A program made the translations under genes and the position numbers. From Larus michahellis (Eukaryota; Chordata; Aves; Charadriiformes; Laridae), in the NCBI RefSeq assembly GCF_964199755.1, contig NC_133897.1, forward strand, positions 138,328,125-138,392,124: a stretch of DNA of 64,000 nucleotides. Reading direction: 5' to 3'. This document shows, piece after piece, positions 28,271-62,721 of the stretch. The notes under the pieces are model-generated. The model saw nothing but the letters and a program-made list of their open reading frames with translations, did no database searches and was not told the origin of the DNA. Position 1 is the stretch's first letter; each line of letters begins with the position of its first letter.

Positions 28271-31200
28271 TCACACTCTTTCATACACTCTAGTGCAGAC
28301 AATTCCTTTCATGGTGCATTCCTAAGGCACAAAGGAAAAGATTAATATAAACCTTTTGCTGACAGCAGGTGTGTCTGCTGCAGTAACCTCTGACGTCAGT
28401 GAAAATCCAGTTGTCATGTTTTACATCTTTACGTATTTACATAATTTTTAGAGCAAGCAGTAAAGCTGTTTTTATATTGCAAATGGAGTGGTTTCTCTTT
28501 TAACATCTTTGGACTTAATTAAGTGGCATACAATGACAAATAGATTGCAGAATTAGGCTCAGCTTCCAGAAACAAATTTACTTTCCTTGGTATTATTGCT
28601 GGCTCGACAGAAATACAAGCCTCACCGGTTTATTGTACCATGGACCACAGACGCTTTCAAGTTTACAAAGGGTTTTTTTGTGGAAGCAGAAGTAGCCTGG
28701 GTAGTTCAGAGGCCAGGCTTCTGGCCTAAAAAACTTTGCACTTATGAGTCACAATTTCTCCTGGTCCTCTTGCCCCAGTGGCCTTCAGCAGCTCCTGGTG
28801 ACTCTCAGCCACAGGACGCCTGCCACAGAGGCGACGGGGCATTAAAAAAGACCTCATCAGTCTGCAGAAGACGAGGCCACCTCACCTGACAAGGGGCAGA
28901 TGTCAGGACATCGATGGAAGAGGGACCCTCCCTCTCTCCTTTTCGAAGGTGGTTTAATAATTAGAAAAAATTTACACAGAAATGCGGCCATGAGGAGATG
29001 CGAAAGCAAATCACCCTTTCAAATGCATGAGACCTTAAAAGAAAATGCAGTCAGAACAAGCCAGCACGTAAAGGTGTAGTGCTGCCGATTTCAAAGAAGT
29101 TGCCAAAATTAATTTGGATCCACTTTTTAAAAACTTTAACAAAGAAAGTACGTTCCTTCATTCAAAAGTGAAATCTTAAATTTTAGCAGTGACCCTTACA
29201 ACTAGTGTCCCTAAAATATGTTATCACCCAGGCCTGGCCAGCCCATGGTTTCCACATGGCTGCTAGAGAAAGGCAGGTTGAAGCGGGGGTGAGGGACAAA
29301 CCATCGTTCCCCCGCCCCGGGGAAAGACGGCATTCTTTCATGGTGTTGGGTGTTTGGGAAGAGCCGTCAGGACCTGCTGGTCCCTGCTGCCGGTCACCAC
29401 ACAGGCAGGACTGCGCACAGAGGTGCTGGCTTTCACGCAGTAAACCTCAAGTGCCTGCTTAGTGCTCTCGGCATGCTCATGCGGAAAAAGCAAACTGAAG
29501 TTTGTGAGTTGATGGGATTTAATGGAAGGAGATGTGTGAAAAGGTGTAAAATCAGTTTTCTACGGTGGACAGGCTTTATTCCAAAGATAAGAAAAAGGAA
29601 AGAGCCAGTCCAGGGACAGCAATACCCAACCTGCAAACTATTATTTGCATTTCACAGGTTTCTGCTATTTGAAAACCTCATTTCTTTTAAGAATAATAAC
29701 CTTGAGAGCAGTAAGTATGCTGACAATTTATGGCAGCTCTGCCATACAATTTGCTGTATGGAACAATATTTGTTTCCTTCTAGCTTGTTTCCTAAGCTTG
29801 GTTCCCCTTTTCTCCCTCTTAATTTATCTCATAAGCCAGAGAGAAAGCCAAAATTGACAGTCTGTTTAGACAGAAGCAAACTGAAGGCTGCATCCTTCTG
29901 ACCTCCATCAGCACACAAGGAGAGTGAACTTACCACCACCATTTTCCCATCAACCAGTCTTCTCTTTATCGTGGTCTCTTTGCCATTCCACTTCTGCACT
30001 TGCACCAATGCTCCTTTCTCCAAGGTTACAACACTCTGTAAAGGCCAAGCGAAGAGTTTCAAACTGAGGTCTGAGCTTTGCAGATAATTACATTCAGCAA
30101 GATCCACATTCTTGGCTAATGACACACTTAGTAATGTTAGTTTCAGCTGCATGCTAGTTCTCCTTTTAGTGCTTTCTTTGAATAGTTTGGAAAACTCATA
30201 CTGCACTAAGGAAAAACTCCTTCTGATGCTGTTCTAGGAAGTCAAGACCAGTCAGAGACCATCAGCCCCCTTACCTTGACTTTCCGGTCATCTGCTGTTG
30301 TTTCATCAAACTGCTGGCCCAGTTTGAAAGAGATGGTTGTATTTTTGAAGGTGCTTTCAGTTCTGATGGTTACTATGTCCCCTTTCATACTGATGATCAC
30401 ATCCGGCTTTGCCAGGCCACCTAGTTTCCGGGTAGCTAAGCCCACTCCTAGAAATCAGAAACAAAACTATAATTACATTCTAGCAAGCAAGAAACTCAAT
30501 ATCCTGTAATAAATCTTTAGTGGATTAATAAGGAACAGTTTCTTCTTGAGTACTCCAATGCCTGATTCAGATGAGACATTAATTCTTCAAATGTGGAAGT
30601 ACTGCATGCAGAGGCTGAGGCAGCCCCAGTTGATGGAGTGCACCTTCAGCAAGAAATAGAGATATACATAAGTATTCACTTGTGTAAATTAGCTAAGAAG
30701 AAACCTAGGTGGTTATAAATCTGAATGAATTTGTGTAGAGGTAGAATGGGTAGAAAAATTCAGAGGAAAGGTCTATTTCTCATAAAAGTCTGCAAAAATC
30801 CTTTTTAAAAAAAAATTCTTGACAAATCTGAGAATCTACGCTTTTGTTAACCGGCTACATGGAATAAACTGGACACTGAACTGCCAATTCTTAATTGTTC
30901 ATTAAAACATACTGGAGACTGGGCAATTCCTAGGTTGCTACTAACATCCCTTAAGGATCCTTAAAAAGTACAAGCATGAAATATAAAAAACATTGAAGTA
31001 TAAGAGCAAAAAGCTGCAGAGAGCTTCAGGGAAAATTCCATGTCAAAAGCCTTTCGTATCGCCCAGTGCGATTCAGTCCACTTCGTTGTCCACAAGCTGT
31101 GAGGTCTGGGGCCAGTTAGAATGAGGGCCACTGACGATGTATCGCTGCTTTATAAAAGCATAAAGGGGGTAGCTGTAGTTATTGCCTTTGGTAATGCTAG

Positions 31201-32004
31201 CTATGCTCAGATGAAAAGATCCATAAAAAGGGGTATAAAGTTGTCTGTAAAGTATGACACTATTTGTAGTAATTATTCTATACTAACCAATTCTGTTCAG
31301 ATCTTCAGAAACATATCTGTAGCTGGACTTTCACCCCACATTTACTCCGGTTAATTAATTAGCTGCAATTCTTTTGTTATTCAGTTTAACATTTCAAATA
31401 AAGGGAATCAGTGTTTCAGTGAATCACTTATGTAGCAAAAGCGATGCTGTAGCTGACTGTCTGTGCACTTGCTATATAGGAATGAAGCCAGCATTAAAAT
31501 GAAAAACAATGCTTAATTTATTACATTCCTGGCATTCTTCGGTAACAGATAGATTCATTCATAAGATTTAGACCTCTGAAACCAAAGTGTCATGAGACAT
31601 CAGCTCCATTATATATTGTAAATTATCACAAGTCACGAGTTTAACAGTGCAGTCAAGAGAAACATAAAAAATGCTGCATCCCCAGAGATTCTTCTCATTA
31701 AAGAAAAACAAATAGGATCAGGTCAGCTCAGTTAGACAGAAGTAAATTTATTTCAGTAATTCAGCACCTACCTTTCTGATTTTCATTTTAGATGCTAAAG
31801 GAAAGAAAATAAATCATGCTAGAAAAGTAATTAAAGTGCTTTTGTGGCCATGAGCAAAGCACATGATGAAGAAGAGACATTGTCAAAGAGAACTTATTTA
31901 AAAAAAAAAAAAAAGAAAGAACATTTCTCACCCAATTCTTTCATATAGTCATCAAAATTTTCACTAGAGATGAGTTTCCAGGTTCCCACAAATCGGTTAC
32001 ACAT
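28271..32004 (-). CDS. PMP2: peripheral myelin protein 2 (myelin P2, FABP8), 4 exons
   Basis: A cytosolic fatty-acid-binding protein of the intracellular lipid-binding family. In other vertebrates it binds fatty acids and membranes in the myelin of Schwann cells. Coding exons are 31932-32004, 30275-30447, 29934-30035 and 28271-28321 (73+173+102+51 bases, 132 residues). All introns are GT-AG, with donors GTGAGA, GTAAGG and GTAAGT. The protein starts [16 protein letters not shown]; exon 2 begins [19 protein letters not shown], exon 3 [18 protein letters not shown], and it ends [11 protein letters not shown]. The ligand-carboxylate residues are kept: Arg in IKRR and Arg/Tyr in [17 protein letters not shown] and VVCTR-type endings favour PMP2 over FABP4. 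The family-standard ATG is used; a longer upstream frame to 32154 runs through the TATA element and is not coding. Neighbour and close paralogue: FABP4. Confidence 0.96.
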
Positions 32005-32110: not shown

Positions 32111-32155
32111 CCTTTTAAAGATGCCCAGTCCCTGCAGCGGTCAGGACGGGCCAAT
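32111..32155 (-). promoter_or_regulatory. PMP2: PMP2 core promoter (TATA-like and inverted CCAAT box)
   Basis: On the minus strand an ATTGG (inverted CCAAT, 32151-32155) lies 30 bp upstream of CTTTAAAAGG (32111-32120), which sits about 107 bp upstream of the PMP2 start codon. FABP4 has the same pair at nearly the same spacing, which supports a real promoter. The transcription start itself cannot be seen. Confidence 0.6.
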
Positions 32156-38274: not shown

Positions 38275-41200
38275 TCATGCTTTTTCATAAACTCTTTTGC
38301 AGGTAACATTATTCATGGCGCATTCCTGGAAAGAGAGACAAATTTAACTGGCTTTTAACTCTCACTAAGTGTTTGTAAGTCAGAAGGTAGAGAATTACTT
38401 ATCCATTGGAAGACAGAGTAAGAAAAAAACTGCGTTGCTCCCATCTAAAACCAATTGCCAAGACAGTGAAACTCAAGTTTGAGAACTTCAGAAACAGAAG
38501 TCTGAAATACAAGCACAGGACCGAATGAACACCAAAGGACTGCTCCAGAGACCCCCAGGAGAGTTCTAATCTCCTCTTAAAAACCTCTAAAGAAGGCTAC
38601 TAGGACTTCTATGGAGGGTGATGGGATTCTGGAGCTGGGCATTAATGTTTTTTCCTTCCACCTTTTGCAGTTGTGGCTTGTCTTCTTCACACCCATGTGC
38701 ACAACACGTACCCGCACAGAGCCCTACGTAGCTTCCAGACTTGCGGCTGCCGGTGTCAGCCTCTGCATGTTAGGCTCTGTCCTCACCTATTTTTCTGTTA
38801 GATCAAACTCTGTTTTGTTCAATCGTTCTTAATGAAGTTGTTATTAAAAACTATTTCTGTTTCTTCTCCTCTGGTCTCTATCCAAAGAAATTTGAATATT
38901 AAATTTATGGACATACTATTTTTCTCTAGGGGAGGGCAGAACGCCCCAGGAATTTCGTGTATGTGTATCGTTTTGTAGCATGTAGGAATCTCAGCTGCCT
39001 TTTATGATCACAGTTTTAGTCCCCTCCCAGATTCTTCAAAGTGTCTTTCCTAAAACTGGAGAGTGGTGCTGGGAAGCCCCACACTGCAGGTGGGCCTCAC
39101 TGGCACCACGTCAAGCACAATACTCTCTGACCAGATAACGCCAGCCAACAGAGCTCGGATAGAGCTTTCTGGTTTTGCTATAACAACATATTTTTGGCAT
39201 AGTTGTTGGTGATCCATAGTATGGTTCCCACAGATGGCTGTTAAGTCTCTACTGGAAATGAACTGGAGTATTTTGCACCAGCACAGAGAGAATGCACTTA
39301 TTTGTCTAAACTGTCCAGGAGTTAAATATTCTGATATATAAAAATTTCCCTCACAGAGATGACACTTTTTTCTCCCTACTCTTTCCTAACCATGTCTTGC
39401 TATGAATGGAGGTCAGGCACCTCCATACCACTCCGTAAGTTTAACAGCATTTCCGTTTTAATACATACTCCAGACTCATTTGGAGAAACTTCTCGCCAAG
39501 AGCACAGAGCCCTTTCAGATGCTTTCACTCCCTATGTTTGAATCCAATATAATACATCTGGCAAGCATGAATTCTGCGCAATGAATTCAGTGATTACGTA
39601 GCAAAAATGAACTCACCACCACCAGGTTCCCATCCACCACTTTTCTCTTTATGATAGTCTCTTTTCCGTCCCACTTCTGCACCTGGTTCAGTATGCCATT
39701 GTCTAGGGTTATGACGTTCTGCCAAAGAAAAAAAAAGCAAAGCGTGGCTGTTTCATCAGGGTGCTCCGGGCTGAAGACCGTCTCCATGTCCAAACAGCAC
39801 TGAAGGACACAGCATCCATAGCACTCTCACCTTTGAAGGCAGCATTTCTACACTGGATGTCAATATCACAACTCCATCCGCCTGCTCCCACCTCTCTTTT
39901 GAGAGGTGTATTTGGAAAGTGCTGGTTTGGGACTCACCTTTGTTTTTCTGTCATCTGCTGTGGTCTCGTCAAACTCTTCACCCAGCTTGAAAGAGACCTC
40001 TGTATTTTTGAAGGTACTTTCTGTTTTGATGGTTATCACGTCACCATTGATGCTGATAGTTACATTGGGCTTGGCCACACCAGCCATTTTCCTGGTAGCA
40101 AACCCCACACCTGTAAATAAGACAGGGCACTATGAAATTTTTATCTTTACTCAATGTTTCTCTCTTATTTTGGGGGAAAGAAAAAGAATTCGGTGCTGAT
40201 TTCACTATTACTTTCTACTTTCTTTTTTTTTTTAATATTTTTTTTTATTACTCTTTTATTATTTATCAATTCCATGTTGCAGAGGCTCCTTTGTAACATC
40301 TCACTAGCTTGCTACGGCTATAGACCAAGCCGGGTGGGATAACATAAGGCAATTCTCTGCTGTCATTGTCAGAATAGTAAAAGCAATATTTTGAAGACAG
40401 AGGCAAGATTTTAATGCCAGATATTTGCACACACACTTGTTCAAAATAACTGTGGTGGTTTGTACACTAACTTGTATGCTAACTGTATCTAAAAGTAAAC
40501 AAGCAGACATATATGACAGTTTCTAAGCCACAAAAACAAACAAACAATCAAGAAAAAAAAAAGCAAGCACTTTTTTCATTTATCGGTGGCTAAGTTGAAT
40601 AAAAGGAAATGATTAAGAAATAGCTGGCAATGGTTATGTCCTGAGTAAAATCTGGGGTAAAGATTAAGAGTGCAAGAGTCTCACTGAAAGCTGTCTGAAT
40701 GCTGCATAAGTCTCAGTGAGTATTTTACCCCTACTCTCCAAAAAACCCCCAGCTTTTTAGCAGGTACTGGTCCAATCAGTGCAAGTTACCCCATACTGCC
40801 CCCACGCTACCGCACTAAAAGGATGTGGAATCCTCTGAAAGCCCAATTTTAATTCTAAGCAAGAAGTCTACACCTGTAGAGAAGTGTGTTATCCCTCAAA
40901 TCTTTTGCAAGTATCTGCATGAATCCACGCAATTTTCTTTGTTAATATTCACTGGAGGCAGCTACAGTTTCATTCGCTATAATAGCCGTGACAATTAATC
41001 CGTCTCCTAGTCCAGTAGGAATATAAAGAAGTTCAGGCGTGTTGCTTTTAGACATAGAGAAGCTTGCTGCATTCAAGCATTACACTGCTTTGTACATACA
41101 AGGATAAAAGCTAATCGACACAAAATATTGCAGTGACGCATTTTACTTCCATTTATAACGCTACTAAGTAGGCATGCATAGACTTGGCTTACCTGAAACT

Positions 41201-41485
41201 ATTCCTCCCAATCAAGGTTTTTCTACGTTATAGGAATTTTACACCACTAATTCAAACAGCCCAGTTCTCCAGTTTAAGAACATCTGATCAAAGTGGACTA
41301 AAACCCCCTTGTTAAACAGCATAGCCAGAAAAAAAAGCAAGCAAGGAATAAAGTTCAAAATCAGCATTCCTTCCCTGTCCCAGATAGAAGATCTCCAAAT
41401 AGCAATTCTCACCCAGCTCTTTCATATAGTCCTCAAAGTTTTCACTAGAAAGGAGCTTCCAGGTGCCCACAAACTGGTCACACAT
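38275..41485 (-). CDS. FABP4: adipocyte fatty acid-binding protein 4 (aP2), 4 exons
   Basis: A cytosolic carrier of long-chain fatty acids. In adipocytes and macrophages of other vertebrates it shuttles ligands to lipases and to nuclear PPARgamma. Coding exons are 41413-41485, 39938-40110, 39617-39718 and 38275-38325 (73+173+102+51 bases, 132 residues). All introns are GT-AG, with GTGAGA, GTGAGT and GTGAGT donors. The protein starts [19 protein letters not shown]; exon 2 reads [19 protein letters not shown] and continues to [11 protein letters not shown]; exon 3 is [18 protein letters not shown]; the end is [11 protein letters not shown]. The ligand Arg (IKRK) and Arg-x-Tyr (KRVY) are present, as are the basic residues of the portal helix and TRK that form the family's nuclear-localisation patch. 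[12 protein letters not shown] identifies FABP4 and not PMP2. Confidence 0.97.
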
Positions 41486-41618: not shown

Positions 41619-42689
41619 GAAGAGGGAGTCCCAGTGCCCAGTGTTTTCCTTCCTCCCCTACCCCTCCTTTGCCAGTAGGTCATAGTGTTGTTATTATTCA
41701 TATGCCCTTACTAGCACAAAGATCACTGTCTTGTTTTTATTTAATTATTTTTGTCATTCAAGAACACTCCATCTTAAAGGCAAATAATTAAACCACACTG
41801 ACTTTCAGAAGAAAAAGGTAGGCTCAACCCACAGAGGGTTATGTTCTCTCCCATACCCTTTCATTTCAGTCTGCCATAACAACTGAACACAGCTAAATTT
41901 CCAGTCTGTAAGATCTGAAATGCTTGTTGGGATAATTTAGTTTGTTTTTTGGACCCCTGTAGTTAGAAGTTTTCTCCAGAGAGGCACAGAATTACAAGAA
42001 GAAGTGGATTTGGGGCACAGAGAGAGCGTGCTGGTGGCTGTAGAAGGGTAAGGCAATAAAATTCCTTTTTTGATTGGGATCTCCTTATCATTGCACCTCC
42101 TGAATCGATTGACCAATATTCTGTATTCTGCTTTTATGTGATGGATATGGGGCTCTGTGAAAAGCAAAGCAACAAAACAGATTATTTCTCTCCCTTTTGT
42201 TCCTGTGCTTTCTGAAGACCTATGTCCCAAAGACTAGCATTATGACTAGTGATGGCATAAAAGTGGACTCTGGTATCGACTCACCAAAGGTCCCTGGATG
42301 CTTAATTTGTTTTCTGTTCACACTTTTCAGGTAGTAATCTGTTTGAGGCAAGGTGTGTACAGGCCTGACATAATGAGGTCCACCTTGACTGATCCCCTAA
42401 GCTCTGTCATTGCTCAGATCACAAAAAACTGTATCGGAAAGCAGGCAAGCAATTTGTCAGACTTTCCTTTTGGCTGTAACACGCTATTCCAATAGCAAAA
42501 AGCAGCTAATAAGTGTGGACTCCAGCCCCTGCAATTCCCTTTAGATGGATTTCCTGGAAATACTCCGCTGGCTGTTAGGCATCAAATGTGTTGGTCCATG
42601 TATTTTCATACTTGTTGACTTCATAACTAACAACGTTGTAGAAAAAATATTTATATAGGATTGTAAGATTATAGGGAAATTTGGAAAGG
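41619..42689. other. intergenic DNA upstream of FABP4, nothing recognised
   Basis: AT-rich sequence without gene or repeat signatures. Confidence 0.45.
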
Positions 42690-43320
42690 AAGGGAGGTCG
42701 GGATGTCTCCAGCACAGCCTTGCGCTCAGGCAGGGCCACCTCTGAGCTCAGACCAGGCTACTCAGGACTGTGCCCTGTTGGGGTTTGGAAACTTCCAAGG
42801 ATGGAGCCAGCACAACATGCCTGGGCAACCTGCACCCCTGGCCACCTGTGCCCCTGGGGTAAAGAGTCTCCCTGTCTCCTTCTGAACCTCTCTTCTTTCA
42901 GTCTCTTGTTCTTCCACCACTCATTGCTGTGAAAAGTCTGGCTCCAACTCCTTCGTCACTTCCCCATAGTTGTTGGGGGTTGCTGTAAGCACACCCAAAG
43001 CCATCTCTTATCCAGGATGAACCACTGCAGTCTCACAGCTTCTCCTCAGAGGGCAAGTGCTCCAGCCTCCTGAGCATCCTGAGGGCCCTCTGCTGAACTC
43101 ACTCCAAAACTGGATGCAGTACTCTGGTTACAGCCTAATGAGTGCTGAGGAGTGGGGAATAATCACGTCCATCAACCTACTGGCTGTGCTCCTGTTCATA
43201 GAGACCAGGAGGTTTTTGGCCTTTGTGCTACCAGGGCTCAGCTCACTGCCCCCTGGGACCTGAGGGCCTTTTCTGCAGAGCTTCTCCCTTGCCACTCTGT
43301 CCCCAGCCTGCATTGCTGGG
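42690..43320 (-). mobile_element. old CR1 LINE fragment (-)
   Basis: Antisense CR1 phrases are readable despite decay: GAACCACTGCAGTCTCACAG, CAAGTGCTCCAGCCTCCTGA, ACTGGATGCAGTACTCTGGT, AGTGCTGAGGAGTGGGGAAT. The 3' tail is not recognisable. More diverged than the other CR1 copies here, so an older insertion. Confidence 0.7.
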
Positions 43321-43528: not shown

Positions 43529-43575
43529 ATTGCTTTTTTTTCAGAGTATCGCATGCTCAGGTCCTCTTTAAAAGG
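43529..43575 (+). promoter_or_regulatory. relic promoter of the inverted FABP-like pseudogene
   Basis: CTTTAAAAGG at 43566-43575 is identical to the PMP2 TATA-like element and lies 80 bp upstream of the FABP-like ATG at 43656. ATTG (43529-43532, ATTGC instead of ATTGG) sits 33 bp further upstream, where PMP2 and FABP4 have an inverted CCAAT box. Functional status unknown. Confidence 0.45.
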
Positions 43576-43655
43576 AAACTCTGAGGGGCTTTCAAGTTTG
43601 TGTCATTACCTTGGGATTTTTGACTTAGAATTATTGGCTTGAGAAACACGGCACC

Positions 43656-44571
43656 ATGTCTGATCAGTTTGCAGGAACTTGGGAAGTCAAATCCAGTAGT
43701 TACACGAGGAGTACTTGAAAGTATCAGGTGAGGGTTGCCGCAGTGCCATGGACAGAAAGGACGCGATTGGGCTGAACTCAGTTCCTGCGCTTACTTTGCT
43801 TGCCTTTTGGGATCTGCTCTGTGTGTGGCTTACTACAATTAGCATTCATTTCTTTGGAGGGGAAATAGGCCTTTTATATTCAAAACTATAGCCTGGGAGA
43901 GGGGATTGGCCTTCCTTTGGTGTTAACAGCTGCCTGCAATGCTTGTGCTGCTGGAAGAGTTTTTTGGGAGAGAGGTGAAGCACCTGTTCCATGCAAATCA
44001 GTTCGGAGCAGGCAAGCGCACCCTCCCTAGGCACTCAATTGCTTGCATCTATTTAAAGTGAATCTGAGCTATTTGTAGATGTCTTGCGAACACGATGACT
44101 CAAAAATGCAGGAAGAAGGCCAGCTTGTGGGCTGACTTGCTTGTTTACTTCAAAGCAAGCAGCTATCTGGGAGCAGGCTCATGGCTGTCACTTGGGAAGT
44201 GTCCTACCAATGGTCTACTTTCCCTCGCAAGACTACCAGTGACAAGATAAGCTTGCGGCATTGATGTCATCTAATGCAAGTCCTGCCTGCTCTCTGGGGC
44301 AAAGGCCTCAAGTCATCCAGCCCTGCTGATAAAGACTGAAGTGCTTAATGGCTATGAAGAAATCAGGGGGGCTTCTGAGCATGGAAGCTTAGGCAAACCT
44401 GGGATTTGAGTCATTTGCAACATGGCTTGCCAGCAACAGCTGGGCATCGTGGCTAAACAGTCCTGTGGTCATCAGCACTGATGGGATCTAACACCATCAA
44501 AAGCAAGGGCATCTTCAAAAGTGTAGAAAGCTCCTTCAAAATAAGAGGGAATTTTGAAGAAACCACATCAG
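43656..44571 (+). pseudogene. decayed FABP-like gene on the opposite strand (exons 1 and 2)
   Basis: Exon 1 is 43656-43727: a good Kozak ATG (GCACCATGT), then MSDQFAGTWEVKSSS. A one-base loss near 43703-43707 shifts the frame. Beyond it the other frame reads EEYLK and ends at a perfect GTGAGG donor. Length is 72 bases against the family's 73. The exon 2 relic spans about 44411-44571: SFAT, then QLGIVAK, VVISTDG, then TIKSKGIFKSVESSF and NFEETTS before GTAAGAGG, with at least three indels between blocks. These blocks match the order of a FABP exon 2. The orientation is opposite to PMP2, FABP4 and the FABP12-like gene. Which FABP it was is unclear; the STDG and FEETTS blocks look most like FABP12/FABP5-type members. 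Exons 3 and 4 are not securely found. Confidence 0.7.
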
Positions 44572-45422
44572 GTAAGAGGTAAACCACAGAAGGGAAGCTG
44601 GTGAGAGTTCAACACAGTAAAGAAATGCTTGCAAAGTAAATTCGTTACAGAGGGAAACCTTGTCTCTTAATCCTGATATGAACTGAGGCAGCTGAAGTCT
44701 GCAAACAACGATACACTGTCTGCAATGTGGTTTTGGGGTGCTGTGACCTTTAAGGGTGGTTCTTGATGCAGGAGGTGCAGAAGTGGAATAGCAAAGCAGC
44801 AGCTGCGCAGCGGAGATCGGTGGATGGGAAGGTGGTGATGGTGGGTTAACTCTTGCTCTGTAAGTCAGACCAACGAAGCAGATCTGCTTGAGAAAACAGC
44901 TTTTTACAAAAATGAGCACAATAGTAACCTCCCTTTTGCTCTTTTGGGCATGCAAGAGGAATGACGCTGCTTCCACTAGAGAATGAGAAAGAGGATGCTT
45001 ATTCCTGTCATCGAGATCTGTGACTTAGGACAGCTTTTAACTGAGGAGCGTGACAAATATTTCCTGGTACTTTAGATATGTATGGACTTGTCAAAGTGAA
45101 AATGCAGCTTACTCTCAACTGAGAAGACATGAACTAACAAATCATGGTTACGACTATTAGCAACACTCTGCTTAAATAGAGGCTTCTTTCTCCAGTTCCT
45201 CCTTGTCCCAGAGGGCAACAGTGTACAACTCCTTCGACTGCTATGGCTATTGAACTGGTGACTACCAGTGGGTAGCAGCGTGTTGGGCTTCCACAGTTGT
45301 CTCCATAGTTCTGCTACCCTTTGAATCAAAAACTGGGATGAAAAGACAAAAAGACATCTGTGCTCAGTTCCACACCTGATGCCATAGCAGACTATTAGGC
45401 CATTGACAATGACTTCTCTTGA

Positions 45423-60966: not shown

Positions 60967-62711
60967 TGCCACCATTTCCCCCTCCGTTGGCTGTCTCTTG
61001 ATTATGTACTCTGTGCTGTCCCATTTCTGGACCTGGTTCAGTGCCTGGCTGTCCACAGCCACAATGCTCTGAGGAAATGCAAAGATAATCCCAAGCCTCC
61101 TCTTCACGCTACAGTTACACCTGAGATTACAGTGGTATTTCAGTTCCCTCCTTAGGCTGGTGTTTCTGTTCTACTCTGACTACGGAAACATACAGTTTTG
61201 GATTCATATCACTTAATTTCAGCCATTCAATAATCAATTAGTCAACTTAGCTAAGCTAGCCCACTAAGCTCCAGGTACAGACAAGGTGCAGTGGGAAAGG
61301 CAGATCCAGGCCATATACTAACAGTGTATATTTTATGGCCAGCTGCACCTGGAAGTTAACTTCTCTTTCCATTGGCTACAGAGAGAACACAAATGACTAT
61401 CTTAAAATTAAACCTCCTGCCTGAACAGATTTTGGTCATGCAGAATCAGGGAGTGATTATTCAACACTCAGAAATGCCCATATGCCCTCCTGGGGTTTCA
61501 TGCTGCAGATCATTAGTTTAATAGGTTTTGTGTAAAACTGGTGGGCGGTAGTCAGTACTGGCTTAATCTAATACCTTTATTAAAGATGGAAATAGATATA
61601 AAATCCCTGCCAATAAAACCTGTGGATGACACAAAGACTGGCAGAATGATAAATTATGACAGATTAAGGGCTGGTAATACAGCATGAGCTGGATTTGGTA
61701 ACAAACAAAACATGTTACAGTGTGCATATAAAATGGGATGCTGGAAAAAGGTAAATTTGTAAAGGACTTCGACCAGACCACAAAGTGTTAACATCAGTCT
61801 AACAGTGTGACAAGCAGGGCTAATGTGGTTCTTGAGGGTGTTAAGAGGAGTAGGATATTTTTATGGTATTAAGGATGCTGGATGCATAGAACTGCTGCAT
61901 GTCTTGTACAGGATCAAGAGAAGACTCGTTGAAGAGCTGCACAAATTTTCTGAGGGATGAAAAAGTGTCTCTCAGTGACTGAGAAGGAAGCTGAACACAG
62001 TATAATCATCTCGCCTTCACTGCCGATGCACAGCAAAAGGATACTATTACGTTTGATATAGCTCCTTATTCTAAGGCATAACAACAGCCTGTGTCTGAAA
62101 GCTGAAACTGGACAAATCGAATTGAGGTACACTCCCTGAGCGAGTGAGATTAATAAAGACTGACAGAAATTTTCTGTATCTTGTTTCCAAGTCAGTACCG
62201 GTTATTTTTTTGTCATCTTCATGTCTCTGGAAGATACTTTTTAATCAAATTAAAATGATGCGTTCCACTTGCAGGTATTACCATGTGAAGCTGAATGATT
62301 TAGGAAGTACAGAAATCTGGCCAGATTAATATCTTAACTTCTATGAATCTACTGCAGAAAACATACCCCTCGTGGTTTTCTTGAAGTCCCTGGTCCTGTC
62401 TGTTTCTCGGTATGGAGTATCTGTTTCCATTTCATTATTTTTTCCAGAACTAGTTGTGTTTCACAAACGTCTTGCTGATAATCTGCATGTCTTTTCTTGT
62501 TCTTCTGTAAATATGGGCAATCTAGTGGAAACCTTTCAATCTTACAGTTTTACAGTCATACGGTGTGTTTTCATTGAACCCCTCACCCAGTGTGAAGGAG
62601 ATCATGATGCTTTAAAGGCACTTTTTGTTTTGGTGGTGATCCCACGCATTTTGGCACTGATTGTCACGCTGGATCTGGCTAGTCTGCCTGGTTTCCTTGA
62701 GAATGAAACCA
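60967..62711 (-). pseudogene. FABP12: FABP12-like gene, decaying (exons 2 and 3 recognised)
   Basis: Exon 2 is 62546-62711 (166 bases, family 173). It reads SFSRKPGRLARSSVTISA, then TKTKSAFK; a one-base loss then creates TGA at 62602-62604, and the shifted frame continues ISFTLGEGFNENTP to a GTAAGA donor. The E-F-E-E-TP ending is FABP12-like; other members have ETTADD. Exon 3 is 60967-61068 (102 bases, open): a CAG acceptor, then [17 protein letters not shown] and IIKRQPTEGEMVA. Its donor is GCGAGC where GTGAGC is expected. Exons 1 and 4 were not securely found. Minus-strand position beyond FABP4 matches the vertebrate order. The combination of frameshift, damaged donor and missing ends argues for a pseudogene, though a sequencing error in exon 2 cannot be excluded. 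Confidence 0.75.
61069..62545 (-). other. intron 2 of the FABP12-like pseudogene
   Basis: GT (62545) to AG (61069) spacing of 1477 bp, much longer than intron 2 of PMP2 (239 bp) and FABP4 (219 bp). No repeat was recognised inside that would explain the difference. Confidence 0.55.
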
Positions 62712-62721
62712 CTTAAAAAAA

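Follow-up and report, generated by a model that had tools for sequence, protein, structure and literature searches.

The DNA analysed here (the window) is a 64,000-nt stretch of the 1.4-Gb genome of Larus michahellis (NC_133897.1:138,328,125-138,392,124). It carries two open fatty acid-binding protein (FABP) genes, a decayed FABP gene (referred to here as the relic), and a second pseudogene, that of FABP12. The genes and pseudogenes were located with an aligner that carries a protein profile across introns and frameshifts, and the features are as follows:

28274..32004, − strand: PMP2 (FABP8), all four exons open (spliced profile alignment)
32111..32121, − strand: TCTTTAAAAGG box; the PMP2 ATG lies 106 nt downstream
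38278..41485, − strand: FABP4, all four exons open (spliced profile alignment)
42688..43106, + strand: interspersed repeat between FABP4 and the relic, with at least 45 genome matches, itself included (40 of 827 candidates scored)
43565..43575, + strand: TATA-like promoter box TCTTTAAAAGG; the relic ATG lies 80 nt downstream
43656..43727, + strand: relic exon 1 (72 of its 73 bases), with a frameshift and an intact GT donor, GTGAGG (direct reading; spliced alignment with the generic profile ends it at 43726)
44417..44588, + strand: relic exon 2, frameshift, TAA stop, expected acceptor and donor lost (spliced profile alignment)
44737..44840, + strand: relic exon 3, frameshift, expected acceptor lost, GT donor kept (spliced profile alignment)
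60967..61068, − strand: FABP12 pseudogene exon 3, donor GT lost (reads GC)
62543..62712, − strand: FABP12 pseudogene exon 2, frameshifted (spliced profile alignment, tree)
66162-66232 in window-equivalent numbering, past the window end, − strand: FABP12 pseudogene exon 1, frameshifted, GTG at the expected ATG

The gene order is FABP5 (+), PMP2 (−), FABP4 (−), relic (+), dead FABP12 (−), and IMPA1-type exons (−). FABP5 lies about 40 kb left of the window, and the inositol-monophosphatase exons, taken as IMPA1, lie to its right at NC_133897.1:138419271-138424982. FABP4 is 98% identical to the emu representative, the best full-length non-bird FABP4 among the matches listed reaching 85%. FABP4 and the relic stand head to head, with 2.17 kb between their ATGs and the interspersed repeat, presumably of the CR1 type, between them. 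In mammals, PMP2, FABP9, FABP4, and FABP12 lie on one strand, with FABP9 between PMP2 and FABP4. The relic is oriented opposite to PMP2, FABP4, and FABP12, as a preliminary description of this DNA had claimed. Such an orientation is not in itself without precedent, since FABP5 of the same cluster is on the + strand as well and the cluster therefore already has two orientations.

The + strand from 43,656 to 44,840 contains exons 1, 2, and 3 of a decayed FABP gene. A protein search of the window returned FABP matches on this strand at 43656, 44493, and 44763, and the second half of exon 2 was also recovered by a whole-genome search. With a generic profile of seven FABPs, the three exons score 137.4, whereas 500 dinucleotide shuffles give a mean of 26.5 and a maximum of 38.7. 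The best score among 137 FABP-free 2-kb stretches was 33.1 (144 had been taken as FABP-free, 7 of which proved to carry FABP5 or FABP12 exons). With the profile of T4, one of the extra turtle FABP paralogues labelled here T2 to T6, the relic scores 172.7 and the maximum of 200 shuffles is 54.0. The best PDB match of a hand-stitched relic query is myelin P2 (E = 9e-24); a protein search with the same query gave two candidates, neither of them under threshold. The relic exons measure 72, 172, and 104 bp, and PMC7193176 gives 173 bp for FABP exon 2 and 102 bp for exon 3. FABP genes have four exons according to PMC6928644. For relic exon 4, there was no confident match: two profiles put it at different positions, 48123 and 47083, which shuffles equal in 3/200 and 8/200 cases, respectively, and both candidates were rejected. 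These results agree with the preliminary description in the ATG at 43656, the GTGAGG donor and the 72 bases present out of 73 in exon 1, the ordered exon 2 blocks about 690 bp further on, and the promoter-like box upstream. Exon 3 had been overlooked, so that the extent given was too short.

The relic is an unprocessed, single-copy dead gene; as had been stated, it keeps its introns and is not a processed copy, and it carries disabling lesions. Three of its five splice sites are lost, the acceptors of exons 2 and 3 reading AA and GG and the donor of exon 2 reading GA (as read by eye from the printed sequence, and dependent on the aligned exon boundaries). A perfect CAG/GTAAG donor-like site is present at 44569-44576, 17 bases ahead of the expected end of exon 2. 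The relic region (1,361 bases) matches itself alone in the genome. A composite protein searched against the genome produced nine matches at E values up to 10, of which three are the relic exons and six, without stops, fall on other exons of FABP type.

Where bird FABP4 and FABP5 share a base, the relic differs at 26/81, 29/90, and 22/58 for codon positions 1, 2, and 3 (rates of 0.32, 0.32, and 0.38), whereas intact PMP2 differs at 11/82, 5/92, and 20/60 (0.13, 0.05, and 0.33). At sites where FABP4, PMP2, and FABP5 are all equal, the relic differs at 21/70, 27/85, and 12/39 (22/70, 29/86, and 10/39 with the generic alignment). This nearly equal change at all codon positions indicates that, along most of its branch, the relic has evolved free of constraint. 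The difference of about 31% suggests great age, perhaps predating the radiation of living birds.

The 11-base TCTTTAAAAGG box occurs twice in the 64-kb window (both strands), against 0.12 expected, and two occurrences were reached in 1 of 100 shuffles, a figure that flatters because the box was picked after the PMP2 and relic promoters had been aligned. In a comparison of the promoters, shuffles did as well as FABP4 in 83/500 cases and as well as PMP2 in 20/500. The shared box supports a putative, once-working promoter on the + strand.

The neighbour on the far side of the relic, described earlier as an FABP12-like gene, is not a live gene but a second pseudogene, with frameshifts, a GTG start, and a GC donor. 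In a tree of 51 rows, it groups with the open turtle FABP12 (Pangshura, a cluster of 30 sequences) at a support of 99/88 and with all three FABP12 rows at 100/98. Its best score is with Pangshura FABP12 (251), followed by a marsupial FABP12 (213), and the F12 profile scores 220 versus 197. In simulations, a lead of at least 15 for the F12 profile arose in 5/100 decayed FABP12 sequences and in 0/100 of every other group. By sequence comparison, the bird pseudogene is thus assigned as the orthologue of the intact turtle FABP12. PMC7193176 and PMC6928644 describe FABP9 and FABP12 as mammal only. The bird pseudogene and the turtle gene contradict this printed view for FABP12: since turtles have an open protein record of it and this bird a dead copy, the gene should be no younger than the common ancestor of amniotes.

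The 150 kb from FABP5 to IMPA1 was also searched for further relics, as 198 stretches by strand with ten profiles. Outside both relics and the exons already known, the highest score was 54, with the T4 profile at window-equivalent 71514-71134 (−). None of 200 shuffles of its own stretch reach this value, yet it was the top result among some 2,000 comparisons, it aligns poorly, and shuffling the stretch that holds the relic also produced a 54 with the T4 profile; it was not counted as a third relic.

The identity of the relic was approached with trees, profiles, and simulated decay. In the 51-row tree, the relic joins three T4 proteins at a support of 99/98, and when the relic row is taken unadjusted from the generic alignment, this grouping stands at 100/99. 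In the former tree, the relic is nested inside the turtle T4 rows (93/76) on a branch of 1.3 to 1.8, a position odd for a bird gene that looks like a long-branch effect. Among ten group profiles, T4 is the best (173), followed by T3 (164), T6 (162), P2 (151), and F4 (149). Simulated decay gave the pattern of the relic (T4 best, and at least 20 above FABP4) in 77 of 100 cases for T4, 9 for F12, 5 for T3, 2 for T2, 1 for F4, and none for P2, T5, T6, or F9; T5 and T6 were single rows, and decayed FABP4 and FABP12 themselves were recovered in just 31/100 and 30/100. Other results tell against T4. Counts of relic residues present in each group, out of 105, do not favour T4 (T4 54, F4 55, F12 57, T3 54, T2 52, P2 51). 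Exon 1 alone is best matched by bird FABP4 (Tinamus 61, T4 49-50), and exon 2 alone by T3, with human FABP12 also scoring well. Approximately unbiased (AU) tests covered four alternatives, of which FABP9 is rejected (p = 0.0135), whereas bird FABP4 (p = 0.18), T3 (p = 0.35), and FABP12 (p = 0.36) are not. Turtle T4 is probably the orthologue of the relic, judging from these comparisons.

In a vertebrate protein database, an FABP4 query found 1,709 relatives and a T4 query 714, of which 120 were listed in each case. No T4 was seen in birds among the matches listed for the T4 query, the recognised bird entries being FABP4, PMP2, or fusions of both. The earlier suggestion that the gene may be alive in other bird or reptile lineages receives some support, in that the best-placed intact relatives in the trees and the simulation are turtle proteins.

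A filter for fused gene models picked out five of 158 proteins. Three of them (P0063, P0084, and P0085) join T5 exons to T3 exons, and two are bird “FABP4”-type records (P0010 from Gymnogyps and P0019 from Coccothraustes) with exons 1 and 2 of FABP4 followed by exons 3 and 4 of PMP2, chimeras that reflect either read-through splicing or wrong gene models. Two more fusions, missed by the filter, were found by reading: P0121 (T4 with a T5-like exon 1) and P0001 (T2 and T3). The turtle fusions suggest that T2 to T5 lie on one strand, the strand relative to FABP4 not being given by them. The T6 paralogue (P0158 from Trachemys, a cluster of 17 sequences) has FABP9-like wording in exon 3, GSMIHVQKW, as in human FABP9; T6 is perhaps a sauropsid FABP9.

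The adjacent, head-to-head position of FABP4 raises the alternative that the relic is a local inverted duplication of this neighbour that died soon after. A match of inverted repeats (44819-44863 with 39594-39638) pairs the end of relic exon 3 and the start of the following intron with FABP4 at 80% over 45 nt, the similarity extending about 20 bases beyond the exon 3 donor. FABP4 and FABP5 both begin this intron with GTGAGTTCA, and PMP2 has almost the same start. The AU test and the exon 1 scores given above also leave room for such a duplication. Against it, the gap-optimised DNA identity over exons 1 to 3 is 71% to FABP4, 72% to PMP2, and 74% to FABP5, so that the relic is no closer to its neighbour; it is not a recent copy of FABP4. 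Decayed FABP4 also reproduced the pattern of the relic in a single case in 100, and the local inverted duplication is unlikely. A search of 36-62 kb for inverted repeats of at least 25 nt that would mark an inversion returned five pairs of 26 to 45 nt, and the orientation may go back to a block already reversed in an ancestor, or may have come about by inversion or by inverted duplication.

It is equally improbable that FABP12 or turtle T3 had a second copy, in reverse orientation, of which this is the relic. The AU values of both, the second-best profile score of T3, and the human FABP12 score on exon 2 are in its favour, but a separate FABP12 pseudogene stands nearby, the F12 profile gives the relic just 140, and decay of either gene seldom yielded the observed pattern. 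A non-coding gene still transcribed from the promoter box and spliced at the exon 1 donor, both of which are intact, is very unlikely given the lack of constraint at any codon position, although this evidence is silent on a non-coding role. Chance resemblance, to which the Pfam PF00061 score of the hand-stitched protein might point (19.7 bits against a cut-off of 23, a shortfall that decay of the sequence may explain), is refuted by the 500 shuffles.

The relic is therefore best explained, with high confidence, as an old pseudogene, unprocessed and belonging to the PMP2/FABP4/FABP12 branch of the family, that has T4 as its likeliest orthologue and makes no FABP today. Its ancestor would have had the exon layout of a FABP gene and a promoter box like that of PMP2 and would have been transcribed from the + strand, its product presumably being a cytosolic fatty-acid carrier, as is usual in the family. 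The reading frame and three splice sites would have been lost long ago, followed by unconstrained drift. A broader and distinctly more tentative proposal is that the sauropsid ancestor possessed an extra FABP block (T2 to T5), reversed and placed between FABP4 and FABP12, which was kept in turtles and lost toward birds together with FABP12. If this is true, the + strand relic and the FABP12 relic are fossils of a larger cluster.

The relic testifies to gene loss on the way to birds, in which, besides FABP12, a further paralogue, reversed, died beside FABP4. FABP5, PMP2, and FABP4, the three live genes found in this cluster, would then be the remainder of a larger one; this bears on the fat-transport genes lost in birds. 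Among the titles and abstract openings listed from the open-licence literature, none dealt with a bird or reptile FABP12 or with a reversed FABP relic. The finding, solid but modest, adds a relic to a family already known; the death of a gene within a tandem family is an ordinary process, and the interest for the history of the FABP cluster is moderate.

Among known genes, turtle T4 (P0092 from Terrapene, P0121 from Platysternon, and P0122 from Carettochelys, the last annotated in its source as “fatty acid-binding protein, adipocyte-like”) is the best tree partner of the relic; the two are 51% identical across 105 columns, or 46% across 113 when the relic row is left unadjusted. The T4 genes are open as predicted proteins, whereas the relic is dead. 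PMP2 and FABP4 share the exon plan and the cluster with the relic, and PMP2 also its promoter box, but both are open and lie on the − strand. FABP9 belongs to the same family branch, its grouping with the relic being the one that the AU test rejected. The FABP12 pseudogene, whose own tree partners are turtle and mammal FABP12, is likewise dead and in the same cluster, but it lies on the − strand and is a separate gene.
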